DNA of 18,200 nt from Candidatus Woesearchaeota archaeon (GTDB lineage Archaea > Nanobdellota > Nanobdellia > Woesearchaeales > GW2011-AR4), in contig DUHN01000023.1 of NCBI GenBank assembly GCA_013330825.1, positions 1-18,200 of the forward strand, read 5' to 3'. Numbering within the stretch: the stretch's first letter is position 1; the number at the start of each line of letters is the position of its first letter. Both the position numbers and the translations under genes were made by a program. The notes beneath the pieces were generated by a model that ran no database searches, was not told the DNA's origin, and saw only the letters and a program-made list of their open reading frames with translations. This document shows positions 1 through 18,200 of this stretch, piece after piece.

Positions 1-78
1 GTGCAACTCTCCCCGGAGGCTTTTGAGAGGGAAAAATACCTGTGCCGGGAAGAAAGGGGGATAAGGAGGAAAATATCC

Positions 79-543
79 ATGGCAGACATCGGAAAAGCGT
101 ACAAGGAGCTGGCAAAGAGGTACCGGCTTCCGGACTACTCGAAAATAAACAATGAGTTCGAGCTCTGCTTCATCGAGAAGGAGGAGTTCCTGCTGCGCCA
201 GATCATCCGCATCATGATAGAGAGGAGCGAGTTCTTCACCACGCTCATCGATTCCGTGCTCCATCCTGACGGGAGCCAGATCGCGCCGCTGCACGAGTGC
301 CGCCTGTTCGGCGAGAAGGAGAAAGAGGAATTGTATGACCTCTACAAGGCGCTGATGAAGCACCACCGCGCCGCTCTGGTCGTGAATGTGGCGCGCGGGG
401 AGAAGGAGGAAGCGGGGTTCATCACTGATTTTTTCAGGGAATGGGAGCTCCTCAGGCCCAGGATAGCCTCGATGGCGAAGAAGATCCAGCAGTCGTGGGA
501 GAATGACACCACCATCAAGGAAGTCCTGGAGTATTTCGGATGA
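79..543 (+). CDS. Conserved-looking hypothetical protein upstream of adenylate kinase
   Basis: A 154-residue soluble, charged, mostly helical protein that I do not recognise. No signal peptide, membrane segment or cysteine motif is visible. The ATG at 79 is chosen because a strong Shine-Dalgarno (AAGGAGG, 63-69) lies 9 nt upstream. The frame is also open back to a GTG at position 1, so a longer protein reaching the window edge cannot be excluded. A different frame has a TAA at 62-64, which would fit an upstream gene ending inside the Shine-Dalgarno. The stop overlaps the adk start (ATGA, 540-543), so the two genes are probably co-transcribed and translationally coupled. Function unknown; the pairing with adk gives no specific clue. 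Confidence 0.75.
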   Translation: MADIGKAYKELAKRYRLPDYSKINNEFELCFIEKEEFLLRQIIRIMIERSEFFTTLIDSVLHPDGSQIAPLHECRLFGEKEKEELYDLYKALMKHHRAALVVNVARGEKEEAGFITDFFREWELLRPRIASMAKKIQQSWENDTTIKEVLEYFG

Positions 544-1160
544 ACATAGTCATGTTCGGCCCACCCGGGGCGGGAAAGGGAAGCGTGTCCGCGTTCCTGG
601 TCGGGGAGTTCTCCTACCCCCACATCGCCGCGGGGGACATCATCCGCGAGGAGGCCAGGAAGCCGCAGAACAAGGTCAGGGCATACATGGAGAAAGGGGA
701 GCTCGTCCCGGATACCGTCATCATGCAGCTCGTCGGGAGCCGCCTCAGGCAGCCGGACTGCAGGGAAGGGTTCATCCTCGACGGCTTCCCCAGGACGATC
801 GTGCAGGCGGAGTTCCTCGAAAGGCAGCGCATCCCCGTCGACATCGTCATCAACCTCGAGGTGGACGAGGATGCCATCGTCGACCGCCTGAGCGGCAGGC
901 GCATGGACCCCAAGACAGGGCAGATTTACAATCTCAATACCATGGAGCTGCCGGAAGGCGTTGACCGGGAGAAGCTGGTGCAGCGGCCGGATGACAAGCC
1001 GGAAGTCATCCGCAAGCGCATCGAGGTGTACAAGAAGCAGACGTCGCCGGTCATCGAGTATTACCGCGAGCGCAACGTCCTGCTCAACATCGACGGCAAC
1101 CCGGAGCTAGGGCAGGTCGTCGGGAGCGTCCGGGAAGCCCTCCAGAAGGTAAGAGAGTAG
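540..1160 (+). CDS. adk: Adenylate kinase
   Basis: Transfers phosphate between ATP and AMP (ATP + AMP = 2 ADP) in the cytosol. The 206-residue protein has the P-loop GPPGAGKGS at residues 7-15, the AMP-domain segment with GDIIREE, the motif DGFPRT, and a long LID that begins at GRRMDPKTG and ends at QRPDDKPEVIRKR. This is the bacterial/eukaryotic-type long-LID fold, not the short trimeric archaeal AdkA. The LID has no cysteines, so it does not bind structural zinc. Length is normal for the family. The start overlaps the preceding stop by 4 nt. The 3' end runs 54 bp into the convergent truD gene on the other strand. Confidence 0.96.
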   Translation: MNIVMFGPPGAGKGSVSAFLVGEFSYPHIAAGDIIREEARKPQNKVRAYMEKGELVPDTVIMQLVGSRLRQPDCREGFILDGFPRTIVQAEFLERQRIPVDIVINLEVDEDAIVDRLSGRRMDPKTGQIYNLNTMELPEGVDREKLVQRPDDKPEVIRKRIEVYKKQTSPVIEYYRERNVLLNIDGNPELGQVVGSVREALQKVRE

Positions 1161-2150
1161 CACCGTCGCATAGCACGATTTCTTCAGGGTGAATTCGACC
1201 GTCGCTTTCTCCCTGCCGGCGAAGCATTCGTCCTCCCCGATGCCGGTAATGCGGAAATCAGGCGCGGTGAAGAATGCCGCCCGCATCCCCCCTTCGGAGC
1301 TGAGCTCCGGCATCTGCCGGTTGATGAAATCCCGCGGCGAGACTCCCTCCTGCTGGAGCAGTTCATTCGCCGCTTCTTGCGTGTGGCTTTCCAATTCCCC
1401 GATTTCTGTGCCGAATCCGATGATGGGCAACAAGGGAATCGTTGGGAGAAGGGGGGCTGGGTTCTGTGCGAGCAGATGATGGAGGAGAGTGTTGAAGAGG
1501 GACGACTGGTAGGCATGGACGTACATCCTGAGCGTCGAGGCCGGCAGCAAGCGTAATGCGCTGATGGTGTTGTTGGGGTTTTCCTTCAGACTCATCCCGG
1601 CGCGGGAGGAGTGCTCATTGTCGTGCTGCAGGACAAGCCCGATCGCGTTCCTGAAATCCTTCGTCACCAGCGCCTTCCCGATGAGATGGTTGGCCGAGCT
1701 GAAGCGCTGCGGCCCGAAGTAATTGGGGATATGCGATGGCGTTTTTTTGTTTTCTTTCTCAAATTTCTTAATCCGTTCAATGCCTGCGCCATCAATGTTC
1801 CTGATGGTGATGGTGAAGCTGTTGCCCTCCAGGTCTCCGAGGGCGATCTTCCTGAGAGAGAATCCCTTGAACGTCAGGGAGATGTCCGCCAGAGAGAGGT
1901 CCTGCAGCGAAGGGCTGCCCCTGAACACCGAGATGTATTGGGCCGTCACCGCTTTCCGGTCCTTGTTGCCCGCGAAGCCGAAATCCTTCAGCGGCTTCCT
2001 CGCCTCCTCTGCTATCCTTTTGAGCGCGTCCTGGGTCGTGTAGTTGCGCTTCCTCATCTCGAAGACGGCATACTCTCCTGTGTCAGAGAGCCCGCCAAGG
2101 GGAATCTCCCTAACCGCAAAGTCCTCCGGAAAGTGCTTGAGGGCATGCAT
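1107..2150 (-). CDS. truD: tRNA pseudouridine synthase D (TruD family)
   Basis: Isomerises a uridine in tRNA to pseudouridine (U13 in characterised TruD enzymes). The 347-residue protein has the family signature GNKDRKAVTAQ at residues 61-71, with catalytic Asp64, and the second conserved block PNYFGPQRF at 142-150. The N-terminal FPEDFAVREIP is also typical. An AATTAAAA TATA-like box centred near 2177 lies 26 nt upstream of the ATG, supporting this start and a leaderless transcript. It is convergent with adk and the 3' ends overlap by 54 bp. Length is close to the bacterial enzyme and somewhat short for archaeal members. Confidence 0.93.
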   Translation of the reverse strand: MHALKHFPEDFAVREIPLGGLSDTGEYAVFEMRKRNYTTQDALKRIAEEARKPLKDFGFAGNKDRKAVTAQYISVFRGSPSLQDLSLADISLTFKGFSLRKIALGDLEGNSFTITIRNIDGAGIERIKKFEKENKKTPSHIPNYFGPQRFSSANHLIGKALVTKDFRNAIGLVLQHDNEHSSRAGMSLKENPNNTISALRLLPASTLRMYVHAYQSSLFNTLLHHLLAQNPAPLLPTIPLLPIIGFGTEIGELESHTQEAANELLQQEGVSPRDFINRQMPELSSEGGMRAAFFTAPDFRITGIGEDECFAGREKATVEFTLKKSCYATVLLSYLLEGFPDAPDDLP

Positions 2151-2171
2151 AGGATGGGGGATGGGGGAAGG

Positions 2172-2180
2172 GAATTAAAA
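2172..2180 (-). promoter_or_regulatory. TATA-like box of truD
   Basis: On the minus strand this reads TTTTAATTC, centred about 26 nt upstream of the truD ATG at 2150, the normal spacing for an archaeal leaderless promoter. Read on the plus strand, the same AATTAAAAGG could start a transcript near 2203, just before the structured element at 2216-2419. Confidence 0.55.
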
Positions 2181-2215
2181 GGTATGGGGGCAAGAAAGTT
2201 TCCATGATGATCTCC

Positions 2216-2419
2216 GGCTCTGTCCCGAAAGTGGTTACGGGCATCGGGTCGAGCCTTTGCCATTGCGGGAACAAGGGTGTTGTTGGGGGACCCGCCCCTG
2301 CTCGGAGGCGCACCTCCGGCATCCACTGCGTGGACTACGGGGAAACAGCCCCTTCCATGCAAGAAGCGGAAGGCGAGAAGCCCGTAACCCGAGCCGAAGG
2401 CGAGATTCGGGACAGAGCC
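2216..2419 (+). ncRNA. Candidate structured non-coding RNA, family not recognised
   Basis: No convincing protein lies here, but the DNA folds extensively. Helix P1 pairs 2216-2229 with 2406-2419 (14 bp, no mismatch). Helix P2 pairs 2233-2242 with 2380-2389 (10 bp, no mismatch). Inside, 2249-2255 (TCGAGCC) faces 2372-2378 (GGCGAGA) with a tandem G-A mismatch. Local hairpins follow: 2265-2274 with 2280-2284 and 2291-2295; 2304-2308 with 2313-2317; 2322-2326 with 2330-2334; 2339-2342 with 2349-2352. The plus strand is preferred because the tandem mismatch is G-A on that strand but C-U on the other, and a TATA-like box at 2173-2182 would start a transcript near 2203. I see no SRP RNA helix-8 motif and no RNase P conserved blocks. 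A multicopy inverted-repeat element is the main alternative. Confidence 0.5.
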
Positions 2420-2434
2420 ATGATTTCCATAATG

Positions 2435-2443
2435 TTTAAATAA
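2435..2443 (+). promoter_or_regulatory. TATA box of the TM2 protein gene
   Basis: TTTAAATAA centred at 2439, 26 nt before the ATG at 2465. This supports a leaderless transcript and decides the start over the in-frame TTG at 2444. It also marks off the structured element ending at 2419 as lying outside the TM2 mRNA. Confidence 0.65.
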
Positions 2444-2464
2444 TTGAAAGGGGGAAAGGGGCAA

Positions 2465-2725
2465 ATGGCGCCGAAAAAACCAGGAGCGGGCACGTCGAAA
2501 GGCCCGGAGAAGCGGAAGTTCATCATCGCGCTGCTCCTCTCCATTTTCGTGGGGGCATTCGGGGTCGACCGGTTCTACATGGGGCTCATCGGGACGGGCA
2601 TCCTGAAGCTCATCACGCTGGGCGGCTGCGGCGTCTGGTGGCTGATTGACCTCATCCTCATCGCGACCAACCAGCTCCGTGACGCGGATGGCAACTATCT
2701 CGAGAAGGATACGGTCACTGTGTAG
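2465..2725 (+). CDS. TM2-domain membrane protein
   Basis: An 86-residue protein with a short basic N-terminal tail (about 20 residues rich in Lys, Gly and Pro), then the TM2 domain. The first hydrophobic helix (IALLLSIFVGAFG) runs into the conserved loop VDRFYMG, followed by a second helix (GCGVWWLIDLILIAT). The GxxGxDRFYxG-type turn and the WWLIDL block are diagnostic of TM2. The family's function is poorly defined; it sits in the cell membrane. The ATG at 2465 is fixed by a TATA box 26 nt upstream. The next membrane gene overlaps or abuts its 3' end, suggesting co-transcription. Confidence 0.88.
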   Translation: MAPKKPGAGTSKGPEKRKFIIALLLSIFVGAFGVDRFYMGLIGTGILKLITLGGCGVWWLIDLILIATNQLRDADGNYLEKDTVTV

Positions 2726-3035
2726 GGGATTCGTCCTCCTTATCGGCCTCTCCACGCCGGCAAGCAGGATCATCGTCTTCCTTTCCGGCATTCTGCTGCT
2801 GGCAGTCCTCCCCACTGCGCAGCTCCCCCTGCTCCCCATCCGTTCCCTTTATGCGATGGCGGGCTTCTATCCGTATTCCACCGGCATGACGCGCGCGCTC
2901 TCGAGCCTTCTTCACGGCCAGTTCGGCGCGGCGTGGGACTTCAATCCGCTGGTGTACCTGCTCGCGGTTGTCGTGGCAGTGATTCTCGTTAAGGATGTCT
3001 GCACGGTCTATAGGAAAAGGGAATTCTCCTTCTGA
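2688..3035 (+). CDS. DUF2752-like small membrane protein without the usual cysteines
   Basis: About 115 residues with three hydrophobic segments. Its central block, YPYSTGMTRALSSLLHG followed by QFGAAWDFNPL, matches DUF2752, whose usual form is CPGCGxTRA...LLHGxxxxAxxxNP. Here both cysteines are replaced (Tyr and Ser), while the TRA, LLHG and FNPL parts remain. The start is uncertain: ATG 2688 is used, but an ATG at 2646 and non-ATG codons nearer the TM2 stop (2725) are possible, and residues before about 2727 have no clear family match. The frame overlaps the TM2 gene. TM2 and DUF2752 both occur as small membrane proteins of unknown role; a joint function here is inference. Confidence 0.72.
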   Translation: MATISRRIRSLCRGFVLLIGLSTPASRIIVFLSGILLLAVLPTAQLPLLPIRSLYAMAGFYPYSTGMTRALSSLLHGQFGAAWDFNPLVYLLAVVVAVILVKDVCTVYRKREFSF

Positions 3036-3081
3036 GGATACCCAACTATTGCGTGTCATATACAAAACCTTAAAAATAAGC

Positions 3082-3089
3082 GTTTAAAG
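3082..3089 (+). promoter_or_regulatory. TATA box of the DUF47/PiT operon
   Basis: GTTTAAAG centred near 3086, about 27 nt before the ATG at 3113, consistent with a leaderless mRNA. A second AT-rich box, TTAAAAATAAG (3070-3080), lies just upstream and could give a start near 3101. A GGTGGT sequence (3101-3106) would then serve as a weak ribosome site. Confidence 0.5.
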
Positions 3090-3112
3090 AGAGGTGCAGG
3101 GGTGGTATCACT

Positions 3113-3751
3113 ATGGGATTCATGGAATGGGTGTTGCCGAAGGAAAACCAGTTCTTTGAGATGCTGAGCGCGCAATCGGAGAATTGCCTCCAGGCAGCGA
3201 GGGAGCTGGACGGTTTTGTCAGGGAGTACTCTTCCGCGACGGCAGCCAAGCGCGAGACAAGCGTCAGGAGCATCAGCGCCAGGGAGAACAAGGGAGATGA
3301 TATCACCCATGCGATCATCGAGAAGCTGAATTCCTCCTTCATCACCCCCATCGACAAGGAGGACCTCTACCAGATGGCCTGCCTCCTCGATGACATCATC
3401 GACATCATCAATGCCGCGGCCGTCCACATGGTGCTGTTCAATGTGAAGAAGACGGACAAGTGCATGGTTGCCCTGTCAGGCGTCATCGTGCAGATTGTGG
3501 GCGAAGTCGATATCTGCGTCACCGGCCTGAGGAACCTGAGGAACATGAAGACCCAGCACATCCGCATCCACAGCCTCGAGAACAAGGGGGATGACATCTA
3601 CCACGAGGGCCTTGCAGCCCTGTTCAGGAAGTCAAGGGATCCCATTGACATCATGAAGCGGCGGGAGATCTACGGGCTTCTGGAGAGCGTCATCGACAAG
3701 TGCGAGAGTGTCGAGAATGTCATGGAGAACATCTTGGTGAAGCATGCCTGA
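3113..3751 (+). CDS. DUF47 (PhoU-like) protein, putative PiT accessory regulator
   Basis: A 212-residue all-helical protein of the DUF47 family, related to PhoU. The two internal repeats typical of the fold show the ENKGDDITHAI and ENKGDDIYHEG motifs, whose acidic residues bind metal in PhoU-like proteins. TPIDKEDLYQMACLLDDIID in the first half and DPIDIMKRREIYGLLESVID in the second are the matching conserved blocks. DUF47 genes are commonly found directly before pit phosphate-transporter genes, and here it overlaps the PiT start by 8 nt. The likely role is control of phosphate uptake through the neighbouring permease. The promoter box at 3082 fits this ATG. Confidence 0.92.
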   Translation: MGFMEWVLPKENQFFEMLSAQSENCLQAARELDGFVREYSSATAAKRETSVRSISARENKGDDITHAIIEKLNSSFITPIDKEDLYQMACLLDDIIDIINAAAVHMVLFNVKKTDKCMVALSGVIVQIVGEVDICVTGLRNLRNMKTQHIRIHSLENKGDDIYHEGLAALFRKSRDPIDIMKRREIYGLLESVIDKCESVENVMENILVKHA

Positions 3752-4736
3752 TCTTGCGTTCGTCCTCGTCGTCATTTTCGTCGCCCTGGTCTTCGACTTC
3801 ATCAACGGGTTCCATGATTCGGCCAATTCCATCGCGACCATCGTGGCGACGGGCGTCCTGAAGCCGCGGAACGCCGTGCTTCTCGCCGCCTTCTGGAATT
3901 TCGCCGGGGCGTTCATCTTCAGCGTCGCCGTGGCTACGACCATCGGGAAGAATGTCATCGATCCTTCCTCGGTCACCATCTCCATCATCCTGGCCGCGCT
4001 TCTCGGGGCCATCATGTGGAACCTCATCACCTGGTACTTCGGCATCCCGTCCTCGAGCAGCCACGCCCTCATCGGCGGCCTCATCGGGGCGGGCATGGCG
4101 GGCGCGGGCATCGGCGCGGTCCATTTCAGCGGCCTTAAGACCATCTTAGTCTTCATCGTGGTGGCGCCCGTGCTCGGATTCATCGGGGCGCTGCTCCTCA
4201 CCATCATCATGATGTGGACTCTCAGGAGGGTGTCCCCTGCCAGGATGGACTGGTCGTTCAAGAAGCTCCAGCTCGTCTCATCGAGCGCCTACAGCCTGAG
4301 CCACGGCACCAACGACGCGCAGAAGACCATGGGAGTCATCACCCTGGTGCTCCTCACGTCCGGGATGATTTCCGAGTTCCACGTCCCCGTCTGGGTGATT
4401 CTCTCAAGCTACACGGCCATAGCCCTGGGCACGTTCTTCGGCGGCTGGCGCATCGTGAGGACCATGGGGCTACGCATCACCAAGCTGCGGCCATTCCACG
4501 GCTGCATGGCGGAGACCGCCGGCAGCGCCGTCCTTCTCAGCACGGCCCATTTCGGCATCCCTGTCTCGACGACGCATGTCATCTCCGGCTCGATCATGGG
4601 CGTGGGGACGGTCAGGAGGTCCTCCGGCGTGAGATGGCAGATCGCGAGAAAGATCGTCGTGGCATGGCTTCTGACCATCCCCGTTTCAGCGCTTGCGGGG
4701 GCGCTGGCGTATGCGGGGCTGTCCCTGGTCGTATGA
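3744..4736 (+). CDS. pit: PiT-family inorganic phosphate transporter
   Basis: A 330-residue polytopic membrane protein with the duplicated PiT signatures: GFHDSANSIAT at residues 22-32 and SLSHGTNDAQ at 184-193, plus SSSHALIGG and PVSTTHVISG before the last helices. About ten hydrophobic segments are visible. It imports phosphate (usually as a metal-phosphate or cation-coupled substrate) across the cytoplasmic membrane. Sulfate-transporting relatives exist, but pairing with a DUF47 gene favours phosphate. It starts 8 nt inside the DUF47 gene (coupled translation). Its stop lies only 2 nt from the stop of the convergent polX gene. Confidence 0.94.
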   Translation: MPDLAFVLVVIFVALVFDFINGFHDSANSIATIVATGVLKPRNAVLLAAFWNFAGAFIFSVAVATTIGKNVIDPSSVTISIILAALLGAIMWNLITWYFGIPSSSSHALIGGLIGAGMAGAGIGAVHFSGLKTILVFIVVAPVLGFIGALLLTIIMMWTLRRVSPARMDWSFKKLQLVSSSAYSLSHGTNDAQKTMGVITLVLLTSGMISEFHVPVWVILSSYTAIALGTFFGGWRIVRTMGLRITKLRPFHGCMAETAGSAVLLSTAHFGIPVSTTHVISGSIMGVGTVRRSSGVRWQIARKIVVAWLLTIPVSALAGALAYAGLSLVV

Positions 4737-4738
4737 AA

Positions 4739-6463
4739 TCATTTCAACTGCGCCAGCATCCCCTTCACCGGAAGCGCGTTGATGACGTCTTTTTTCTCCG
4801 CCCATCCCCTGCGCGCGGTGAACACGCCCAGCCGGATGCTCTTCAGCGACTCGGCGGTGTGGGCATCCGTCCCGATGGACAGCTTCACGCCCCTTTGCAC
4901 GGCAGCGCGGACATGGGAGGCGTCGAGGTCAAGGCGCTCGGGAGAGGCATTGATCTCCAGCACAGTGCCGGTTGATTTCGCCGTGTCCAGCAGCGCGTCA
5001 AAATCAGTGTCATAGGCAGGCCGCTGGTTGATCAGCCTTCCGGTGGGGTGGGCGATGATGTCCACGTGCTCGTTCTCCATGGCTTTCGTTATCCTCTTCG
5101 TCATCTCTTCTTTGGGATTTTTGAATCCCGAGTGGATCGATCCCAGCACGATGTCCATCTGCTTGAGGATGCGGTTGGGGACGTCTATCGTGCCGTCCTT
5201 GGTGATGTTAGCCTCCATCCCTTTGAGAACAGTAATGCCGCGTATGTTGTTGTTCGCTTTCTCGATGTCTTTGAGGTAGTCCTTGGTTTGTGCGCCTTTT
5301 AATGCATTGGCTATGGGAAGGTTGCCCCCATGGTCGGTGATGCAGATGTACTCATGCCCCATCTCTTGGGCCGCGCGCGCCATCTCCCCGATGGTGTTCG
5401 AGCCGTCGCTCCACGTGCTGTGCATCTGCAGGTCTCCCCTGACGTCCCTCTCCATGATGAGGCGGGGAAGCTTGTGCTGCCTGGCTGCCTCGATCTCCCC
5501 TTCGTTCTCCCGCAGCTCAGGCTCGATGTATGGGAGCCCCAGGGATTCGTAAAGGTCCTGTTCCGTTTTCCCGGCAATCAGGGCATTCGTCCTGTTGCTG
5601 AACAGGCCGTACTCGCTGAGCTTGCACCCTTTGGAAATCGCAGCCTTCCTCAGCTCGATGTTGTGCTGCTTGCTGCCGGTGAAGTAGATCAGGGCCGCGC
5701 CATAGCTTTTCTCGTCGATGACGCGCATGTCCACCTGGATGCCTTCCTTCAGCCGGACGGAGCTTTTGGTGTCCCCTTTCGCGAGCACCTGCTCCACCAG
5801 GGGCAGGGAGGCGAATGCGCCGATGGCCGCCGCCGGGTTTTTCGATGCAACAAGGAGGTCTATGTCCCCTATGGTGTCTTTCCTCCTGCGCAAAGAGCCG
5901 GCGATGTCGATCCGTTTCACGTCCTTGAGCGGCCTTAGCCGGGCAACGATCTCTTCCGCATGGGGCAGGGCAAATCCGAGGGGGATCCTGGTCGCGCTCT
6001 TGGAGAAGGCGAGGCTTTTGAGGATGTTCTCCTCCGCTTTCGCCCCCAAACCGGGGAGGTTCCTGATGTTTCCTGCGCGCGCGGCTTTTTCGAGGGAGGG
6101 GACATCCCTGATCTTCAGCGCCCGGTACAGCTTCTTCAGCGTCTTCGGCCCGAGGCCGGGTATCTTGCCCAGGTTCTCCATGTCAATGGGGACTTCTTTC
6201 TTCAGTTTCTCGTAATACGCAAGCCTGCCCTTTTCCAGGAATTCGCTTATTTTCTCCGCGAGCGCCTCGCCGATGCCCGGCAGCTCCTCCAGCCTGCCTT
6301 CTTTCCATACCTTCCCGATGTCCTCCGAGAGGTTCTCGATGACCAGCGCGGCCTTCTCATACGCGCGTATCTTGAAGGAGTTTTCCTCCTGTATTTCCAG
6401 CAGCTCGGCGATGTTCCTCAATAGTTCCGCGACTTCAAGGTTTTTCATGGGGCAAGTAGTCAT
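4739..6463 (-). CDS. polX: DNA polymerase/3'-5' exonuclease PolX
   Basis: A family X DNA polymerase of 574 residues, usual for bacterial/archaeal PolX, likely acting in gap-filling base-excision repair. Domain order: helix-hairpin-helix DNA-binding segments (residues 1-150, with LPGIGEALAEKI, IPGLGPKTLKKL and LPGLGAKAEENI); a polymerase-beta nucleotidyltransferase core with GSLRRRKDTIGDID ending at Asp202 and the third metal ligand in QVDMRV; and a C-terminal PHP phosphoesterase domain from about 340 (DLQMHSTWSDG, ITDHGGN, IGTDAH). Gln in place of the first PHP His is seen in other PolX proteins too. The ATG at 6463 has GAAGG just upstream; an internal ATG at 6448 also fits the family. It overlaps the upstream Nudix gene by 29 bp. 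Confidence 0.94.
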   Translation of the reverse strand: MTTCPMKNLEVAELLRNIAELLEIQEENSFKIRAYEKAALVIENLSEDIGKVWKEGRLEELPGIGEALAEKISEFLEKGRLAYYEKLKKEVPIDMENLGKIPGLGPKTLKKLYRALKIRDVPSLEKAARAGNIRNLPGLGAKAEENILKSLAFSKSATRIPLGFALPHAEEIVARLRPLKDVKRIDIAGSLRRRKDTIGDIDLLVASKNPAAAIGAFASLPLVEQVLAKGDTKSSVRLKEGIQVDMRVIDEKSYGAALIYFTGSKQHNIELRKAAISKGCKLSEYGLFSNRTNALIAGKTEQDLYESLGLPYIEPELRENEGEIEAARQHKLPRLIMERDVRGDLQMHSTWSDGSNTIGEMARAAQEMGHEYICITDHGGNLPIANALKGAQTKDYLKDIEKANNNIRGITVLKGMEANITKDGTIDVPNRILKQMDIVLGSIHSGFKNPKEEMTKRITKAMENEHVDIIAHPTGRLINQRPAYDTDFDALLDTAKSTGTVLEINASPERLDLDASHVRAAVQRGVKLSIGTDAHTAESLKSIRLGVFTARRGWAEKKDVINALPVKGMLAQLK

Positions 6464-6854
6464 GCGCCTTCTTCAGCAATTCCTTCGCATTCCTGAACGT
6501 CAGCCTTTCCGATGCCTTGTCATACGGCAGCCACTCGAAGCCGGTGTGCTCTGAGGACAATGCCACCTCCCTCCCTCGAGTCTCCATCAGGAAGAACACG
6601 ACCTCCTTGGACATGGTCTTGCCGTCCCTCTTGTAGAAATAATGCATCGTTTCCCGGAAACCGCGCACCATGGCCGCTTCGGTTATCCCTGTCTCCTCCG
6701 CAAGCTCCCGGCGCGCGGTCTGCTCTTCCGTCTCCCCCTGTTCCACGTGGCCCTTGGGAAAATCCCAGTGCCCGGCCCCGTAATGGAGCAGGAGATAGTT
6801 CATTTCCGGAAAGCGGCCGAACACCACGGCTCCGCAGGACTTTTCCCTGGGCAT
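6435..6854 (-). CDS. Nudix hydrolase, Ap4A-hydrolase-like
   Basis: A 139-residue single-domain Nudix protein. The full Nudix box GX5EX7REUXEEXGU is present at residues 35-57 (GHVEQGE...ARRELAEETGI). The N-terminal EKSCGAVVF and the FPKGHVEQGE context resemble asymmetric diadenosine tetraphosphate hydrolases, so the likely reaction is hydrolysis of a nucleoside diphosphate-linked metabolite; the substrate is inferred. ATG 6854 is chosen over ATG 6863 because the TATA-like box at 6874-6885 is centred 26 nt upstream of it. The gene overlaps polX downstream, so the two form an operon linking nucleotide clean-up with DNA repair. Confidence 0.92.
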   Translation of the reverse strand: MPREKSCGAVVFGRFPEMNYLLLHYGAGHWDFPKGHVEQGETEEQTARRELAEETGITEAAMVRGFRETMHYFYKRDGKTMSKEVVFFLMETRGREVALSSEHTGFEWLPYDKASERLTFRNAKELLKKAHDYLPHEKP

Positions 6855-6873
6855 GGAAGACATAAAAACGATG

Positions 6874-6885
6874 AAATTTAAAAAT
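6874..6885 (-). promoter_or_regulatory. TATA box of the Nudix-polX operon
   Basis: Minus strand ATTTTTAAATTT, centred near 6880, 26 nt from ATG 6854. The spacing indicates a leaderless mRNA and favours the second methionine of the open frame. Confidence 0.55.
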
Positions 6886-6986
6886 GCCGCGTTTCTGGGA
6901 GAAAAGTGACGGGGAAGATATAAAAAACGTACAAAGGCACCATAATTATGAAATTTATATAAAATATATAGTAAAAAATAGAAAAG

Positions 6987-6997
6987 TTTATAAATAA
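6987..6997 (+). promoter_or_regulatory. Strong TATA box upstream of the TFE gene
   Basis: TTTATAAATAA centred at 6992 in an AT-rich stretch (about 6930-7000). Expected transcription start is about 7016-7018, coinciding with the first base of the hairpin at 7016. A second box, TTTATATAAAATATATA (6954-6970), lies upstream. Confidence 0.65.
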
Positions 6998-7015
6998 GTG
7001 ACGCGCTAGAAATGT

Positions 7016-7119
7016 GCAGGTACGGATTAGTATCTATTCTGATATTACTACCGCAGCCTGCAAAGAGGTGGCCGCTAGGGATAGCGGACTTTGGGGGTGT
7101 ACCGTCGAAGGAAAATTTT
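7016..7119 (+). ncRNA. Candidate small structured RNA or structured 5' leader of tfe
   Basis: The first hairpin closes with 7016-7020 (GCAGG) against 7057-7061 (CCTGC) and continues through CGG/CCG to a 7-bp helix (TAGTATC with GATATTA, one G-U) around a TATTCT loop. The second has a perfect 6-bp stem, 7072-7077 with 7082-7087, closed by a GGGA (GNRA-type) tetraloop, inside an AAAG/CTTT outer pairing (7062-7065 with 7089-7092). A T-run at 7116-7119 could end a short transcript. The TATA box at 6987 would start it exactly at the first hairpin. It is not a tRNA (no T-loop). It may be an independent RNA or a long regulatory leader of tfe; the sequence does not decide. Confidence 0.4.
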
Positions 7120-7145
7120 GAGAGAGGTATCCCGCTCTATCGCAC

Positions 7146-7667
7146 ATGGCAACGCAAAAACTGACACAGCAGCTCGTGAATGACATCGTATCGGAAGCCG
7201 TCGGCGAAGATAGCTTGGCGATCATCGAGTTTCTCAAGGACAAGAAGAACATCTCCGATTTCAAGATCGCGGAGAAGGTCGACCTCGACATCCATGAGGT
7301 GAGGAACATCCTCTACAGGCTCTACAACCAGAACCTCGTCACCTATTACCGCAAGAAGGACAGGCAGAAGGGATGGTACATCTCCTACTGGACCTTCAAC
7401 AAGAAGCGCGTCAAGGACCTCATGTCCAACCTCAAGAGGCAGAAGCTGGAGAAGTTCCAGAGCCGCCTCAGGCAGGAGGAGGACAACCAGGGGAATTTCT
7501 ACATCTGCCCGAACGCCTGCATCCGCGTGGGCTTCGAGCGCGCGACCGATCTCGAGTATAGGTGCCCGGAATGCGCCTCCCTCCTGAACCACCAGGACAA
7601 TGCCAAGACCATCGAGTTCCTCAAGACCAAGATCAGGGAGATGTCCACGAACGGCATCAGGGCGTAG
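7146..7667 (+). CDS. tfe: Transcription factor E alpha (TFIIE alpha homologue)
   Basis: A general transcription factor that assists open-complex formation by archaeal RNA polymerase with TBP and TFB. The 173-residue length is normal. An N-terminal extended winged helix spans about residues 10-90 (ISDFKIAEKVDLDIHEVRNILYRLY), followed by a basic helical linker (residues 86-110, KKRVKDLMSNLKRQKLEKF) and a C-terminal zinc ribbon with Cys121, Cys125, Cys140 and Cys143. The only strong upstream promoter would give a leader of about 130 nt, unlike the leaderless genes around it. An AAAATTTT at 7112-7119, about 30 nt before the ATG, might be a weak private promoter. Confidence 0.95.
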   Translation: MATQKLTQQLVNDIVSEAVGEDSLAIIEFLKDKKNISDFKIAEKVDLDIHEVRNILYRLYNQNLVTYYRKKDRQKGWYISYWTFNKKRVKDLMSNLKRQKLEKFQSRLRQEEDNQGNFYICPNACIRVGFERATDLEYRCPECASLLNHQDNAKTIEFLKTKIREMSTNGIRA

Positions 7668-7670
7668 AGT

Positions 7671-7684
7671 TCTTAAATAAATAT
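7671..7684 (+). promoter_or_regulatory. TATA box of the nucleotidyltransferase gene
   Basis: TCTTAAATAAATAT immediately after the tfe stop. The expected start near 7705 leaves a leader of about 17 nt containing GAGGG (7710-7714) as a possible ribosome-binding site for ATG 7722. Confidence 0.5.
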
Positions 7685-7721
7685 CCGTTCCCTCTCAATA
7701 ATCAAAGACGAGGGCAGCGGA

Positions 7722-8471
7722 ATGGCAAACGACACATTGGCCATCATCATGGCCGCAGGGTACGGGAGGAGAATGGGGACCATTGACGTTCCCAAGGTGA
7801 TGCTTCCCAACAGGGAAGGCAGGCCATTTATCGCTGATGCGCTGACGTTCCTGCGTTACGACAAGGGGATTGACTTTGCCGTGCTGAGCAGGCGAGAGCC
7901 ATCCTTCGGGCCGTTGCACGACTATCTGGGCAGTCATCCGCAAAGGGAAGGGTTTTCTGTTGTGTATCAGGAAAGAAAGCCGGAAGGTCTTCACGTGCTG
8001 GCTCTCATGAACGAGTATGCCCGGAGAGGTACATTTTATGGTCATGCAAGCCGATACCTGAATGTCATTGCGCTGCCGGGAGACCACAAGCTGACCGCAG
8101 ACCAGTTGAATCTTGATGACTTGGCGGCAGCCCATAAAATCAACAATTCGGGCCTCACCATGGTGTTTTCAAGAGGATGGAACAGCCCAAAAGCGCATAA
8201 GGACCATCTTGATCTGGACAAGAAAGGCCGGATCAGGCGATATTGGAGGGAATCGCGCGATGCAAAAGAGCCAAAAATCGGCGAGAAGGTCACTGGCACC
8301 GGGGTCTGGATGCTGAGCACACAGCTGGTTGGAAGCAGGAAAAAGGCAGCGATATCTGCCCTGGGGTTTTGGGGGGTGCCCTTCCTCTCAGGATACAGCA
8401 ATGCCTTCCCCTATTTCATCGAGCCGGGCTGGGATGGCGTGCGGGACACGCCGGACACGATAGGGAAATAA
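7722..8471 (+). CDS. Sugar-phosphate nucleotidyltransferase-like protein
   Basis: A 249-residue GT-A-fold NTP transferase. The N-terminal nucleotide-binding loop is IIMAAGYGRRMG...VPKVMLP (residues 8-29; Gly13, Arg16 and Lys25 of the G-x-G-x-R-x-G...PK signature). VIALPGDHK around residue 121 supplies the metal-binding Asp. Members activate sugar phosphates with NTP to give NDP-sugars; the sugar and base cannot be read from the sequence. It has its own promoter and no sugar-pathway neighbours, and is less GC-rich by eye than tfe, so independent acquisition is possible. Confidence 0.75.
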   Translation: MANDTLAIIMAAGYGRRMGTIDVPKVMLPNREGRPFIADALTFLRYDKGIDFAVLSRREPSFGPLHDYLGSHPQREGFSVVYQERKPEGLHVLALMNEYARRGTFYGHASRYLNVIALPGDHKLTADQLNLDDLAAAHKINNSGLTMVFSRGWNSPKAHKDHLDLDKKGRIRRYWRESRDAKEPKIGEKVTGTGVWMLSTQLVGSRKKAAISALGFWGVPFLSGYSNAFPYFIEPGWDGVRDTPDTIGK

Positions 8472-8520
8472 AATCGCCTTTCGTCATCCCAAAAAAATCA
8501 AGAAAAATAAAATAAGAAGT

Positions 8521-8679
8521 TCAGCGCCTCTTCTTCGCCCGTTCCGCCTTGGAGCCGCGCTTGATGTCCTGGCCGTGCGCGCGCTTGTAGGTCTGGATGT
8601 CCTTGAATCTGCCCTTGCTGTCCCTGACGGCATAGAGCTTCTTTCCTCTCGAAGACCTGTGTGTCGTTCGTCTTGCCAT
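8521..8679 (-). CDS. Small basic protein of unknown function
   Basis: A 52-residue, very Lys/Arg-rich protein (MARRTTHRSSRGKKLYAVRD, then a block containing GRFKDIQTYKRAHGQDIKR and a KAERAKKRR tail). I do not recognise a named family; the central YAVRDSKGRFKDIQTY pattern looks conserved rather than random. A role in nucleic-acid binding is only a guess from charge. ATG 8679 is chosen over in-frame ATGs at 8712 and 8703 because GGGGTGA lies directly upstream as a Shine-Dalgarno and the extra residues look like leader. It converges with the nucleotidyltransferase gene. Confidence 0.65.
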   Translation of the reverse strand: MARRTTHRSSRGKKLYAVRDSKGRFKDIQTYKRAHGQDIKRGSKAERAKKRR

Positions 8680-8737
8680 GTAGTCACCCCACGTTTTGTG
8701 CATTAGATGCAACTATTTCCTTTTAGGGCTATCCTTG

Positions 8738-8747
8738 CTTTTAAATG
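8738..8747 (-). promoter_or_regulatory. TATA-like box of the small basic protein gene
   Basis: Minus strand CATTTAAAAG, predicting a start near 8717 and a leader of about 38 nt before ATG 8679. This is one of the few genes here with a leader plus Shine-Dalgarno. Confidence 0.4.
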
Positions 8748-8811
8748 TTTTGGAAAATTTTTATGTTTTGGCTGGACGGTGCGGGACAGGCGAATGATAT
8801 CCCGTGCAGTG

Positions 8812-9801
8812 TCATCCCTTCCGTATCTTCGCGACGAAGAATCCCTCGGTGTCGTTGTCCTGCGGCCAGATGCGGAGGCATTTTTTCACGTCGGCGGCAT
8901 AGCGAGTCCCGTCAAATTCCTCGACGGGAAGGCTTCTCTTCAACGGCAGGTCAATGTCCTCAAGGCGGGCATTGCCGTGATGTTGGAGCAAATGGCCGAT
9001 AACACCTTCGTCCTCCTCCGGCTCGAGCGAGCAGGTGGAATACACCATCGTTCCGCCCGGTTTCAGCGCCTCGAACGCGGCCCCGATCAGCTGCTTCTGC
9101 GTCCTCGCGAGGCGCGTGATCATGCCGGGGTTCCACATGATGAGCGTCTTGAGGCTCTTCCGGATGGTGCCGGTGCCCGAGCAGGGGGCGTCGACGAGGA
9201 TCCTGTCGAATTGCTGCCCTGCGCGCTTGAATTGCTGGCCGTACATCCTGGTGATGATGGCGTTCGAGACGCCGCACCGCTGCAGGTTGATGCCCAGCGG
9301 CTTCATGCGGTCGGCGGTGTAGTCGTTCGCGATGAGCACCCCCTCGTTCCTCATGTACTGCGCGATCTGCGTCGTCTTGCTGCCCGGCGCCGCGGCCATG
9401 TCCAGCACAAGCCCGCCGGGCTGCGGATCCAGCACGACAGGCGGGATCATGGACGCCGCCTCCTGGGTGTAGAAATAGCCGAGCGCGTGCTCCGGCAGGT
9501 TGCCGATGTCCCTCCGCGCCCCCTCTATCCAGAACCCTTCCCTGCACCACGGCACCGGAGTCAATGCCCAGTTCTTCTCTAATCTTTTTTTGAGCTCATC
9601 TACCGATAGTTTCAGGGTATTGGCCCGTATCGACCTCCTCAAGAAGGACAGCGAGCACGCCTTGAATGCGGAGAAATCCGTCAATGAAGAGTACCGCTCG
9701 ACGAACTTGGGCTTGAACTCCACGCCCTGCGCCCAGGGTATTTTCTCGTAAGGGATGTCCTCATCGCTTATGCCTTCTTCCGCTTCCATCCCCTTGTTCA
9801 T
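8812..9801 (-). CDS. NOL1/NOP2/Sun-family RNA (cytosine-5) methyltransferase
   Basis: A 329-residue SAM-dependent m5C RNA methyltransferase. The SAM-binding motif DMAAAPGSKT is at residues 134-143. Motif IV is DAPCSGTG (204-211, Cys207, needed for product release in the family) and motif VI STCSLEPEEDE carries the catalytic Cys257. The N-terminal part (SFLRRSIRANTLKLS, WCREGFWIEG) is the usual RNA-binding extension. The target is probably tRNA, as for archaeal Trm4-type proteins, but rRNA is possible. The ATG overlaps the elp3 stop as ATGA; the longer open frame reaching 10083 is only antisense or out-of-frame elp3 sequence. It is co-transcribed with elp3, another tRNA modifier. Confidence 0.92.
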   Translation of the reverse strand: MNKGMEAEEGISDEDIPYEKIPWAQGVEFKPKFVERYSSLTDFSAFKACSLSFLRRSIRANTLKLSVDELKKRLEKNWALTPVPWCREGFWIEGARRDIGNLPEHALGYFYTQEAASMIPPVVLDPQPGGLVLDMAAAPGSKTTQIAQYMRNEGVLIANDYTADRMKPLGINLQRCGVSNAIITRMYGQQFKRAGQQFDRILVDAPCSGTGTIRKSLKTLIMWNPGMITRLARTQKQLIGAAFEALKPGGTMVYSTCSLEPEEDEGVIGHLLQHHGNARLEDIDLPLKRSLPVEEFDGTRYAADVKKCLRIWPQDNDTEGFFVAKIRKG

Positions 9802-11756
9802 AGCTGCTTCACCATGTACGGCCCTTCCCTCCGATAGCCGATTTTCCGGTAATACTCCCTCACCCCGACGCCGGAGATCACCACGAGCCTGTCCTTGCCG
9901 TGCCATGCGCATATCTCCTCTGCCCTTGCGAGCAGCATCCTGCCGATGCCCTTGTGCTGGATGCCCCCTTCCTCGCGCCCGCCGACGGGCACGGCCCTGC
10001 CGAAGACGTGGAGCTCGCGCAGGAGTGCGGACGCCGGCGTTATCTCCTCCCTGAGGGATCGGGAAGGGAAGCGCAGCCTGCAATAGCCTAACAGGATGTC
10101 CGATTCCTTGTCTTCATAGGCAATAAAAAATTCCTTTCCTCCTGACGCTCCATACTCCGTTATGGAGATGGCAGGATTCACCGGTTCGTGATGCCCTTGT
10201 TTCTGATGGCCGGGCTCCCGGCAGCGGATGCACCTGCAGGTGATGCCCTGCTTCTTCAGCTCCGCGTCGATGTACTGCCGGAGGTTGGTCTTATCCACCC
10301 CTCCCCCGGTCATGAACGTGGGGATGTCGCGCTGCACGCGCATGATCCTGCAGTACTCCGGCACGAACTGCTTGAACCACGCGATCCGCTCCGCGGCTTC
10401 TCCGGTGGTGAGGGGGACGAATGCCCCGCTCTTGAAATCTTGATGGAGTCTCGTCCCCTCCATTACCATGCACGGGTATATCTTGAGCATGTCCGGGCGG
10501 TAGTCTTCATTTTCAAAGATGGCTTTGAGCATGGCCCTGTCCATCTCTTCCGTCGTGTGGGGAAGGCCGGGCATGATGTGCGCGTTGATCTTGAACCCCA
10601 GGTCCTTCAGTATGCGGATGGAGTCGATGTTGTCCTGCACCGTGTTCCCGCGATGCGTCTTCTCGAGGACCTCGTCATAGATGGTCTGGATGCCCAGCTC
10701 CACCCGTGTGCAGCCGAGGCGGAGCATCCCGTTGCCCTGCGCCAGCCTGCCGTAGTCGCTCTTGGTCTCTATGGTCAGTCCGACGCACCTGATCTTCGCC
10801 GTCTCGTTTTCCTCCTGCACCGCTTCGAGGGTGACGGCCGCGCTGCCCGGGGCATGCGCCTTGGCGATGGCTTTTCTCATCGCCCTGACGTTCGCGTCTT
10901 GGGAGCTGTCAATCGCTGCTGCCGGCGCTCCATTGGCGGCGTGGCCATTGCGTGGTTGCTCGTTGCTTTGGCTACGGTTATCATCCTCATTGCCCGAAAA
11001 GCCGTTGAGAAGGCCGGGGGTGAAGAGCGTCGCGATGGCGGCGTCATGGGCATCCTTGTCCCTCAAATCCCGGTTCTTGAGGAGCAGGCATTTCTTGTGG
11101 ACGCGCGCGGTCCGCTCTTCCGTGTCTTCCTGCAGCGGCAGCTCGAAAAAAGAGGAGAAGCGGCCGATGTCCAGCTCCCCTGCAGGGTAAAACACCCTTG
11201 AGAAGTCATTCATCGCCTTGAAGACGTATGTGACGAAGTATTCTTGGTAGCTCTTCGGGAAGAAGCAGAACGTCCCTCCCTGGAGGATGATCTCCGCCTT
11301 CTCGGGGGAGTGGTTCATGGCCAGGTAATGCTCCAGCCTGTTGAAGACGCCGATGTAGGGGTCGTAATGGTTCCTGGCCGATCTCCTGGTGGAGGGCTCT
11401 GCCCCGGTGTAGCTCTGCGGCACGTCCCCCCACGGGCTTCCAGGGCCGCCGGGGCAGTAGGTGCACGGCCCGACGTTCTTCATGGTGTGCGGGCACGGGT
11501 AGGGGTCGGTCATCAGCGCGATCGGGGAGACCCCTGAAATCGTGCGCATGGGCTTCATGACCAGAAGGTGGCGGAACTCTTTCTTCTCCTCCGGGGTGGC
11601 GCACACGATCAGGTCGGCATTGTTCGGGATGCCATGCACAGAGGGATGCCTATTCAGCACCTTCATCTTGATCCTGTTCAGGTCGCCAAGTGTTTTGGCA
11701 TTCTCCTGCCTGGCCTCGGCGATGATCTCCCTGCACACCTGCTGGAATGCCGGCAT
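9798..11756 (-). CDS. elp3: Elp3: tRNA uridine-34 modification radical SAM/GNAT enzyme
   Basis: A 652-residue two-domain enzyme that makes the carboxymethyl group at the C5 position of wobble uridine from acetyl-CoA via a radical SAM mechanism. The Fe-S cluster cysteines are Cys88, Cys98 and Cys101 (CPHTMKNVGPCTYCPGG). Conserved blocks ILQGGTFCFFP, RCVGLTIETKSDYGRL, ELGIQTIYDEVL and HIMPGLPHTT follow. The C-terminal GNAT acetyltransferase domain has QHKGIGRMLLARAEE. It is about 110 residues longer than typical archaeal Elp3, largely because of a hydrophilic insertion at about residues 224-309. ATG 11756 is chosen over 11825 because a TTTTAAA box lies 27 nt upstream and the family-like sequence begins there. 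Confidence 0.93.
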   Translation of the reverse strand: MPAFQQVCREIIAEARQENAKTLGDLNRIKMKVLNRHPSVHGIPNNADLIVCATPEEKKEFRHLLVMKPMRTISGVSPIALMTDPYPCPHTMKNVGPCTYCPGGPGSPWGDVPQSYTGAEPSTRRSARNHYDPYIGVFNRLEHYLAMNHSPEKAEIILQGGTFCFFPKSYQEYFVTYVFKAMNDFSRVFYPAGELDIGRFSSFFELPLQEDTEERTARVHKKCLLLKNRDLRDKDAHDAAIATLFTPGLLNGFSGNEDDNRSQSNEQPRNGHAANGAPAAAIDSSQDANVRAMRKAIAKAHAPGSAAVTLEAVQEENETAKIRCVGLTIETKSDYGRLAQGNGMLRLGCTRVELGIQTIYDEVLEKTHRGNTVQDNIDSIRILKDLGFKINAHIMPGLPHTTEEMDRAMLKAIFENEDYRPDMLKIYPCMVMEGTRLHQDFKSGAFVPLTTGEAAERIAWFKQFVPEYCRIMRVQRDIPTFMTGGGVDKTNLRQYIDAELKKQGITCRCIRCREPGHQKQGHHEPVNPAISITEYGASGGKEFFIAYEDKESDILLGYCRLRFPSRSLREEITPASALLRELHVFGRAVPVGGREEGGIQHKGIGRMLLARAEEICAWHGKDRLVVISGVGVREYYRKIGYRREGPYMVKQL

Positions 11757-11779
11757 GGCCGGAAGAAGGCACGGTACTG

Positions 11780-11787
11780 TTTTAAAG
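11780..11787 (-). promoter_or_regulatory. TATA box of the elp3 operon
   Basis: Minus strand CTTTAAAA, centred near 11783, 27 nt before ATG 11756; implies leaderless elp3 mRNA. It lies just downstream of the hairpin that follows the upstream operon. Confidence 0.55.
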
Positions 11788-11806
11788 GTTGTTGTGGGGG
11801 TTGGGT

Positions 11807-11831
11807 GTTTGTTTAACTGCGTCAAACAAAC
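11807..11831 (-). terminator. Hairpin after the exchanger gene
   Basis: An 11-bp stem (GTTTGTTTGAC against GTTAAACAAAC, loop GCA) starting 3 nt after the exchanger stop. In the minus-strand RNA every position pairs, one as G-U; on the plus strand that pair is an A-C mismatch, so the structure belongs to the minus transcript. There is no T-tract after it, so it may be a 3'-end stabiliser or processing point rather than a strict terminator. Confidence 0.45.
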
Positions 11832-11834
11832 CCC

Positions 11835-12788
11835 TCACGCCGTCCCCTTCACGTAGAACTCCACCATGAGGAAGAACGAGTAGAGCATGATGAGCGCGAG
11901 GCCTTCCTGCCAGTTGAGCTTGTTGCCGGACTTGACGAACGTGAGGAAGATGAAGCCCACGAGCAGCATGAAAATCCATGCCGTCAGGTAGAGGAACAGT
12001 GCCTCCTGGATGGGGTGGATCAGCGCGACGATGCCGAGGACGAGGGAAGAGTTCACCACGACGCTTCCGACGGAATCGCCGAGGGCCATCTCCGGGTGGC
12101 CCTGCCGCACAGAGCGGATGTTGAAGGACAGCTCCGGAAGCGAGGTGCCGAGGCCGAGGAGGACAACCCCCACGAGGATGAGCGGGAGGTTCAGCCCCAG
12201 CGCCAAAGACGACGCGTGCTTCACCACGAAATACGCGCTGCCGAGGACGAGCGCAAGGCACGCGATGAACAGGAAGACGGCAGAGACGATTTCCATTCTC
12301 CCGACGGTTTCCTCGACTCTCTTGTGGAGGGTGCGCTGCTGCCGGACGAGATTGTACATGTACACGATGAAGACCCCTATGAGGATCAGCCCGTCAATGC
12401 GCGAAAGCTCCCCGCCAAGGGCCATGAGCACAAGCGGCAGTGCGGCGATGGCGAACATGTAGTAGACGTCGTCCTGCGCTGCCCTGGTGCTGATGCGGAT
12501 GCCGCGCGCAAGGAGCACGGGGATGCCGATCACGGTCGTCAGGTCGGCGATGTTCGACCCGATGAGGTTGCCGAGGGACAGTTGGGGGTTGCCTGCCATG
12601 GCAGACGTGATGCCGATGAACAGCTCCGGGATGGAGGTCGAGAGCCCGATGATGATGAACGAGATGACGAACTCGCTCATGCGGAGGTAGGCGGCGATGC
12701 GCGCGAGGTATTTCACCATGAACGAGGCGGAGACGACAAGCATGACGAGGGAGGCGAAGAAGAAGGCGATGTCGACAAGCAGCGTCAT
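11835..12788 (-). CDS. Na+/Ca2+-exchanger-family (CaCA) membrane protein
   Basis: A 317-residue cation antiporter with about ten membrane helices and the two inverted alpha-repeats of the CaCA superfamily. The first holds STSIPELFIG and GNLIGSNIAD (residues 50-82), the second GTSLPELSFN and GDSVGSVVVN (214-246). The paired Glu residues (Glu55 and its partner in PELSF) are the expected ion ligands. Likely reaction: Ca2+ extrusion driven by Na+ or H+ entry. ATG 12788 overlaps the ATPase stop as ATGA, so the longer frame up to 13178 is antisense or out-of-frame ATPase sequence. Co-transcription with a Ca2+-type P-ATPase makes a shared cation-export role likely. Confidence 0.9.
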   Translation of the reverse strand: MTLLVDIAFFFASLVMLVVSASFMVKYLARIAAYLRMSEFVISFIIIGLSTSIPELFIGITSAMAGNPQLSLGNLIGSNIADLTTVIGIPVLLARGIRISTRAAQDDVYYMFAIAALPLVLMALGGELSRIDGLILIGVFIVYMYNLVRQQRTLHKRVEETVGRMEIVSAVFLFIACLALVLGSAYFVVKHASSLALGLNLPLILVGVVLLGLGTSLPELSFNIRSVRQGHPEMALGDSVGSVVVNSSLVLGIVALIHPIQEALFLYLTAWIFMLLVGFIFLTFVKSGNKLNWQEGLALIMLYSFFLMVEFYVKGTA

Positions 12789-15424: not shown

Positions 15425-15426
15425 CG

Positions 15427-16580: not shown

Positions 16581-16600
16581 GCCACTGGGAGAAAAGGATA

Positions 16601-16614
16601 GTTTAAAATAATTT
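16601..16614. promoter_or_regulatory. Shared bidirectional TATA element
   Basis: GTTTAAAATAATTT lies in the 51-bp gap between two divergent ATGs (16580 minus, 16632 plus). The midpoint of the gap is 16606, so the element is about 26 nt from each start codon. Both genes could be leaderless from a single nearly symmetric TBP site. Confidence 0.6.
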
Positions 16615-16631
16615 CCGCTAAAATCGCCTTT

Positions 16632-17609: not shown

Positions 17610-17630
17610 CAAAAACTTTCCTTAAGAATA

Positions 17631-18197: not shown

Positions 18198-18200
18198 GCC

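Follow-up and report, generated by a model that had tools for sequence, protein, structure and literature searches.

The eukaryotic Ty and Tf elements insert at a constant distance ahead of promoters, Ty3 targeting TFIIIB and Tf1 inserting at Pol II promoters, and short, palindromic, dispersed intergenic MITEs that fold well are represented in bacteria by ERIC, Correia, and NEMIS; among ISs, IS903 carries a terminal inverted repeat (TIR) of the type GGCTTTGTTG... and makes a 9-bp duplication. The closest published behavior found to that described here is that of the bacterial TnGBS, ISLre2, and ISKra4 elements, for which insertion is reported at sigma-A promoters, 15–17 bp upstream of the −35 box (PMC3942029). 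The same paper mentions that the AT-rich target of the archaeal ISH6 (p-MULT 2) might favor promoter or intergenic regions (PMC3942029). Among the titles and beginnings of abstracts searched, most subscription papers lying outside that scope, no report was found of TATA-directed insertion by an archaeal or IS5-family element.

The element analyzed here lies in a window of 18,200 nt, that is, the whole stretch of DNA studied (contig DUHN01000023.1, positions 1–18,200, forward strand; assembly GCA_013330825.1, Candidatus Woesearchaeota archaeon). Its insertion distance is strikingly similar to that of TnGBS, ISLre2, and ISKra4, a TATA-like hexamer starting here 14–18 nt from the element edge, and promoters can be found on either side of the element here, as for the ISs with almost perfect inverted repeats in PMC3942029. 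Both the promoter type and the transposase family differ, with sigma-A promoters and a Mutator-like (p-MULT) DDE transposase there, in contrast to archaeal BRE/TATA promoters and an IS5-family DDE_Tnp_1 transposase here, and structured MITEs, present here, are not mentioned in the available part of that source. ISH6 is likewise an archaeal IS with an AT-rich target possibly favoring promoters, but its AT motif AANATNTT is itself duplicated (PMC3942029), whereas the 9-bp duplication of the present element does not include the TATA box.

Structure of the Element and Its Genomic Context

The genome assembly harboring the window (G000) comprises 1.16 Mb in 83 contigs, with the window on contig C33, and the bin is 87% complete. 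The features discussed below are as follows.

1107–2150, minus strand: truD (tRNA pseudouridine synthase D), the left neighbor (Pfam TruD, 236.3 bits)
2173–2180, minus strand: probable truD TATA box TTTTAATT, read leftwards, 30 nt ahead of the truD ATG
2207–2215, no strand: left target-site duplication ATGATCTCC, 8/9 identical to the right copy
2216–2419, plus strand: whole MITE, 204 bp, from dispersed matches and mapped ends
2216–2229, plus strand: left TIR, equal to the 5′ strand of helix P1, GGCTCTGTCCCGAA, 14 bp, exact
2233–2242, plus strand: 5′ strand of helix P2, GGTTACGGGC, pairing 10/10
2286–2343, plus strand: conserved core (model R1) with two hairpins and a possible closing CCCC/GGGG helix, from a 23-copy alignment
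2303–2318, plus strand: core hairpin 1, CGGAGG-CGCA-CCTCCG, one pair changed on both sides (AU/GC)
2322–2334, plus strand: core hairpin 2, TCCAC-TGC-GTGGA, one pair changed on both sides (UA/CG)
2380–2389, plus strand: 3′ strand of helix P2, GCCCGTAACC, pairing 10/10 with 2233–2242
2390–2404, plus strand: small 3′ hairpin CGAGCC-GAA-GGCGAG between P2 and P1, with a G.A opposition (by eye, unscored)
2406–2419, plus strand: right TIR, equal to the 3′ strand of helix P1, pairing exactly with 2216–2229
2420–2428, no strand: right target-site duplication ATGATTTCC, matched to the left copy with one mismatch over 9 bp
2429–2434, plus strand: 6-nt spacer ATAATG at the BRE position of the TM2 promoter (from the sequence)
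2435–2442, plus strand: TM2 TATA box TTTAAATA, 15 nt from the element edge (from the sequence)
2465–2725, plus strand: TM2-domain gene, its ATG 30 nt past the TATA start, a leaderless spacing (Pfam TM2, 69.9 bits)

An earlier sequence-only reading had described P1 (14 bp) and P2 (10 bp) as helices without mismatches, and both are found as such, at 2216–2229/2406–2419 and 2233–2242/2380–2389, respectively. The segment 2203–2420 folds at −107.6 kcal/mol, whereas shuffled sequences average −84.5 (sd 4.7; z = −4.9) and none of 200 was as good. No hallmark of SRP RNA, RNase P RNA, or 5S rRNA had been recognized in the earlier reading, and in the Rfam search no family reached the gathering score within the window; for seven loci with related elements, two matches at E ≤ 1 were obtained, both below the gathering score. 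In the small 3′ hairpin (window 2390–2404 and many copies), G.A/A.G oppositions (CGAG..GCGAG) and GAA or GNRA-like loops are seen by eye, with flanking pairs that vary, a form presumably akin to the stable GNA/GNRA hairpins.

The same reading had attributed a plus-strand box at 2173–2182 to the element as the promoter of a stand-alone ncRNA. This box fits the leftward promoter of truD: on the minus strand, TTTTAATT begins at 2180 and the truD ATG is at 2150, a 30-nt spacing identical to that of TM2 (TATA 2435, ATG 2465), and the assignment rests on this spacing, the commonest distance from TATA to start codon at the target promoters being 30–31 nt. A stand-alone ncRNA gene is thus unsupported. 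A scan of genome contigs confirmed no truD orthologs. Further along the window (3113–4736), a PhoU_div (DUF47) gene is followed by a PHO4 phosphate transporter gene, likely in an operon.

Dispersed Copies and Target-Site Duplications

In its own genome, the element gave at least 34 matches at E ≤ 0.001 (40 of 58 candidates scored), which sets aside the view of a single-copy structure; two of them are near full length (C39:1716–1917 and C50:27990–28189). The core is present at least partly in 27 of the 34 matches and, once aligned, about 58 bases (window 2286–2343) are common, the arms being different. The 23 distinct cores, obtained after leaving out three of the 27 hits (partial or with N) and one duplicate, share a mean column identity of 91%, and the core is retained in own-genome copies with different ends. 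At up to two mismatches, the 14-base TIR occurs at 36 places in the own genome vs 11 for the reversed control, and exact GGCTCTGTCCNRAA at 20 vs 0. This exact sequence is present in 7 of the 36 family genomes (20 in the own genome, 17 in G008, 14 in G009, 4 in G007, 3 in G011, and 1 each in G024 and G026), all 36 giving 0 matches to its reversed control. The hits in G007, G008, G009, and G011 bound elements, those in G024 and G026, one each, being unpaired and probably due to chance. Within this Woesearchaeota family, relatives of the element occur in four other genera. These elements resemble ERIC, Correia, and NEMIS in being short, palindromic, dispersed, intergenic, and well folding, and differ from them in a conserved core common to copies with different TIRs and in a fixed promoter spacing.

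The core model R1, searched over 287 genomes of the order with at most 19 candidates scored per listed genome, gave at least the matches found in four of them (the own genome, G008 with two, G004, and G046). Of the two in G008, one (L088) corresponds to a complete element flanked by a perfect duplication; the match in G004 lies inside a 173-aa ORF, and both the G004 and the G046 matches are treated as unproven. The exact core pattern was found in one stretch of genome contigs and in none of the viral contigs, own-genome records possibly having been left out of this search. The two-hairpin module of the core is also seen without the rest of the element (L071:1485–1530, L085:1501–1546, L086:1501–1538, L113, and L147), just upstream of an 88-aa ORF in G011, inside the 173-aa ORF in G004, and, by eye, within other MITEs; either a separate, smaller repeat or a chance occurrence may account for it. 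Longer MITE variants (L136, L137, L138, L139, and L145 in G008, and L147, with an N run, in G007), measure 220–629 bp when the two ends are visible and have additional hairpins in the region between the arms, which looks as though short palindromic repeats gathered there.

At the 19 sites with both GGCTCTGTCC ends, the flanking 9-mers are identical at 9/9 positions in 12 (own C39, C50:27990, and C76; G008 L114, L121, L127, L136, and L088; G009 L115 and L129; G011 L109 and L113), at 8/9 in three (the window, own C70, and G007 L116), at 7/9 in one (L138), and at only 3–4/9 in the other three (L051, L108, and L137). Own-genome MITEs with other ends also show duplications, of 8/9 in C13, C57, and C9:3100 and of 6/9 in C9:17427 and C50:48131, and for the remaining own core copies, which are probably old, truncated, or incorrectly bounded, the end-mapping script gave no clear duplication. 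The window element therefore has the attributes of a MITE, that is, TIRs, a target-site duplication, dispersed copies, and a length (204 bp) too short for a transposase. A mobile inverted-repeat element, to be recognized by dispersed copies with target-site duplications, had been the alternative offered in the sequence-only reading, and since many such copies are found, this option is the right one.

A Fixed Distance Between the Element and the TATA Box

Outside GGCTCTGTCC ends, matched with up to one mismatch, 71 distinct flanks were collected; four loci were dropped by eye as chance, none with a TATA (L064, L069, L105, and L107), and the rest form 48 sites, of which 19 have two ends and 29 have one. 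The start of a TATA-like hexamer falls 14–18 nt from the element edge at 31 of the 48 (chance about 2), or 31/52 if the four loci are kept, at 17 of the 19 two-ended sites, and at all seven autonomous copies whose ends were placed by a TATA-blind script. In control 5-nt windows starting at 22–45, the means were 1.5 (48 sites), 1.2 (two-ended sites), and 0.4 (IS copies), and in shuffled flanks 2.0, 1.2, and 1.1, respectively, with 0 of 2000 shuffles reaching the observed number in any set. The count of 31/48 was reached with eight hexamers, the initial list of six having given 30/48 (TTTAAT was then taken out and TATTTA, TTATAA, and TTAAAA included), so hexamers were added after the first count, and the pattern was first noticed in the same flanks that were later counted. 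The IS set, obtained by scanning 33 loci (30 distinct places) for TIR pairs with duplications of at least 8/9, the TATA box being ignored, is more independent than the MITE flanks, although one of its members, L171, had been seen earlier with its TATA; the seven copies that gave ends (L171, L194, L195, L205, L206, L207, and L209) come from six genera in six families. Among the 17 sites without a listed hexamer at 14–18 nt, three (L033, L037, and L051) have TATA-like variants by eye, two (L019 and L111) have a hexamer nearer the edge, and the other 12 are unconvincing.

From the element outwards, the layout consists of the 9-bp duplication, a 6-nt BRE-like spacer, the TATA box, and often a start codon about 30 nt further on, and the consensus of 39 TATA-side flanks reads nine duplicated bases, R-N-A-A-(A/C)-C, and TTTWWAAA. 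In this outward direction, an ORF of at least 70 aa starts 23–81 nt beyond the nominal TATA position at 32 of 38 sites, and at 26–34 nt at 19 of 38, compared with control flanks of two-ended elements without a TATA, of which 8/21 run into such an ORF and 3/21 have a start at 26–34 nt. The outward ORF starts indicate that the AACC-like bases occupy the BRE position and that the promoter points away from the element; the opposite arrangement, a TATA box pointing into the element, was rejected on the positions of the start codons. Oriented by its core, the element has the TATA box on its left in own C39 and C50:27990 and on its right in the window, L109, and L113.

Autonomous Relatives Carrying an IS5-Family Transposase

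Related autonomous elements encode a DDE transposase of the IS5 family (NCBIfam NF033579), and some of them share inverted repeats with these MITEs. The NCBIfam scan covered two transposases, from G025 and G020: the former matches NF033579 at 150.5 bits, above the cut-off of 140, and the latter (L157) has it as best match at 135.7 bits, below the cut-off; both match DDE_Tnp_1 / IS5 models, which places them outside the Mutator-like group. The NF033579 elements, taken here to be of the IS903 type, resemble IS903 in transposase family, in TIRs mostly beginning with GGC, and in the 9-bp duplication, and depart from it in the fixed TATA-proximal target and in possessing several TIRs, some of them common to IS and MITE variants. 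In G032, L171 is a complete 890-bp IS flanked by a perfect 9-bp duplication, and the first 15 bases of its TIR, GGCTCAGTAGAAAGT, are identical to those of the own-genome MITEs C13 and C57; the ends of ISs and MITEs thus show partial joint variation, and for some MITE types autonomous relatives with matching ends exist.

For the GGCTCTGTCC type, contig ends in G009 show GGCTCTGTCCCAAATC and, behind it, an ORF start resembling those of the IS ORFs. Ten contig ends there run into one of two sequences behind the GGCTCTGTCC end, four of them into the ORF start MKKEIKLVNKVKRLLRRL (translated by eye, one being cut one base short) and six into what is read as the opposite end. An ORF start of this kind belongs to DDE_Tnp_1 proteins with open frames of 282–295 aa in G020, G022, G023, and G025. 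This ORF start was used as the search query after the PF01609 places had given no partner: PF01609 has a match in 19 of the 36 family genomes and, among the 20 places fetched of 37 listed, the GGCTCTGTCC end at up to one mismatch was absent, except for one unrelated GGCTCTCTCC.

Partners with the same ends were found solely in relatives, and in the assembly of the own genome neither PF01609 nor a tblastn search with a transposase of this kind gave a match. The own-genome transposase may be unassembled, since the bin is incomplete and three of its contigs (C12, C27, and C33) stop 7–9 bases inside the GGCTCTGTCCCGAA TIR end. On C33 itself, beyond the window (G000:C33:28769–28789), the contig breaks off shortly within a further GGCTCTGTCCCGAA end (AGTCTGA...), which probably belongs to the autonomous IS that is missing. 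An IS1595-type partner was rejected, PF12762 being absent from the own genome. Apart from these counts, IS copies with the TIR GGCGTTGTTGAAAATC (L155 in G025 and L167 in G023) show apparent 11–12 bp duplications beside TATA-like sequences, so that the lineage may not have a uniform duplication length. IS5-like elements that are more distant (L174 in G008, L176 in G013, and L182 in G032) and have other ends, TGCTTGTTTGC.., TGCTCGATTGC.., and GCTTTGCCG.., show 8–10 bp duplications, also near TATA-like sequences and likewise uncounted.

Covariation and Alternative Explanations

P1 coincides with the TIR and P2 does not, and the sequence of P2 varies among copies (GGTTACGGGC, GGTTACTGGC, GGTTGCCATC, GGGCAGCATC, GGTTAGCAGC, and others). 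At least 9 of its 10 pairs are formed in 29 of 33 elements, compared with 316 of 1056 cross-element combinations, in which many elements share one P2 type, and with 9.5% when the 3′ parts are shuffled. An alignment of 11 sequences from five genomes, whose G007 and G009 rows have P2 misaligned by MAFFT, contains 15 cells changed on both sides vs 4.1 in shuffles (0/500 as high), although its two-sided pairs (5) were reached by 16/500 shuffles and its further pair types (10) by 59/500. In the core, the covariation score (0.082) and the paired share (96.8%) exceed all 500 shuffles, whereas the 2 of 18 pairs changed on both sides are matched by 217/500 shuffles and the further pair types by 439/500; the closing CCCC/GGGG helix is 92.4% paired, with no two-sided change. 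Related rows can exceed shuffles without structure. The check for compensatory changes proposed in the sequence-only reading is therefore positive for P2 and mixed for the core. Because P2 covaries between copies, the folded single strand may also matter, and the element, although mobile, may also be conserved as a foldable strand.

The P2 data are compatible with selection on the folded strand and equally with correction of palindromes by template switching, and the covarying P2 most likely either belongs to a strand that has to fold or is a trace of palindrome repair. If the element were a functional structured RNA, a riboregulator or trans-acting sRNA that had become mobile secondarily and was transcribed from neighboring promoters, its fold would be under selection, as the pairing of P2 within rather than across elements (29/33 vs 316/1056), the 15 two-sided cells, the two core statistics above all shuffles, and the persistence of the core between differing ends would suggest. 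It is nevertheless unlikely, given that neither the window nor the seven related loci have an Rfam match at threshold, that no promoter of its own is seen, that the two-sided pairs and further pair types were attained by shuffles in the core (217/500 and 439/500) as well as in the 11-sequence alignment (16/500 and 59/500), and that the orientation relative to the TATA box is not fixed among copies. Replication can also switch templates between the arms of a long palindrome (quasipalindrome correction), so that compensatory changes need no selection, and near-perfect pairing would then be a mutational by-product of one arm being copied onto the other. This reading is less likely than not, though far from remote: the element is a long palindrome in which several different TIR and P2 sequences are each almost perfectly paired, but the G.A oppositions of the small 3′ hairpin are left uncorrected in many copies (by eye, unscored), and the loop bases of core hairpin 2 are conserved.

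Two further explanations concern the position of the element rather than its fold. The TATA spacing might reflect survival, with insertions landing anywhere and those sparing promoters and genes remaining; such a process predicts a broad pattern, and is highly improbable in view of the peak observed, with 7 of the 48 sites at 10–14 nt, 30 at 15–19, and 1 at 20–24. A role as transcription terminator or insulator, retained because it benefits the host, would agree with the location between the divergent truD and TM2 promoters, yet copies lie in many different flanks, and a TM2 homolog is present in 8 of 39 genomes (own included), with one same-family relative, G002, in which the 90 nt upstream of TM2 hold no such element; this function is accordingly very hard to credit.

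Proposed Mechanism and Implications

The segment 2216–2419 is thus very probably a MITE of a Woesearchaeota IS5-family lineage, moved in trans and seated precisely upstream of BRE/TATA. The RNA-like element is, as a MITE, ordinary in kind; what is surprising, and open to testing, is its fixed seat beside BRE/TATA, which the autonomous relatives with placed ends have in common with it. A DDE transposase acting in trans, presumably of the NF033579-type lineage in the case of the window copy, would bind the two inverted ends and join the element to a 9-bp staggered target, which would be picked with near base-pair precision, its 9 bp lying 6 bp outside the TATA box. For a leaderless gene the target would be placed at −45 to −37 of the start codon, immediately upstream of BRE, as the duplication is for TM2, and the promoter would point away from the inserted element. 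The target would be selected through the promoter sequence itself or through TBP/TFB sitting on it, and insertion without damage to host genes may be the benefit of the TATA-proximal seat.

In a more specific version, which is rather doubtful, the transposase would dock on TBP–TFB at TATA/BRE and insert at the upstream edge of the complex; such docking, if true, would be the archaeal counterpart of the targeting by Ty3 and Tf1. Since many of the TATA boxes are nearly symmetric (TTTAAA), TBP binding in reverse orientation would start transcription about 8–10 nt inside the element, a reading suggested by PMC6640164, which reports that near-symmetric TATA boxes of Pyrococcus furiosus drive transcription in both directions. 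The fixed spacing could in this way also make the insertions sources of a structured RNA of about 200 nt, which would explain the covarying inner fold.

If this targeting holds, some of the intergenic structured RNAs predicted in these genomes would, as a caution, be promoter-seated MITEs. The TATA-proximal seat apparently lets the element jump without breaking genes, and an IS family that tags BRE/TATA would mark promoters in uncultivated DPANN archaea and would make it simple to test whether TBP/TFB can guide a DDE transposase.
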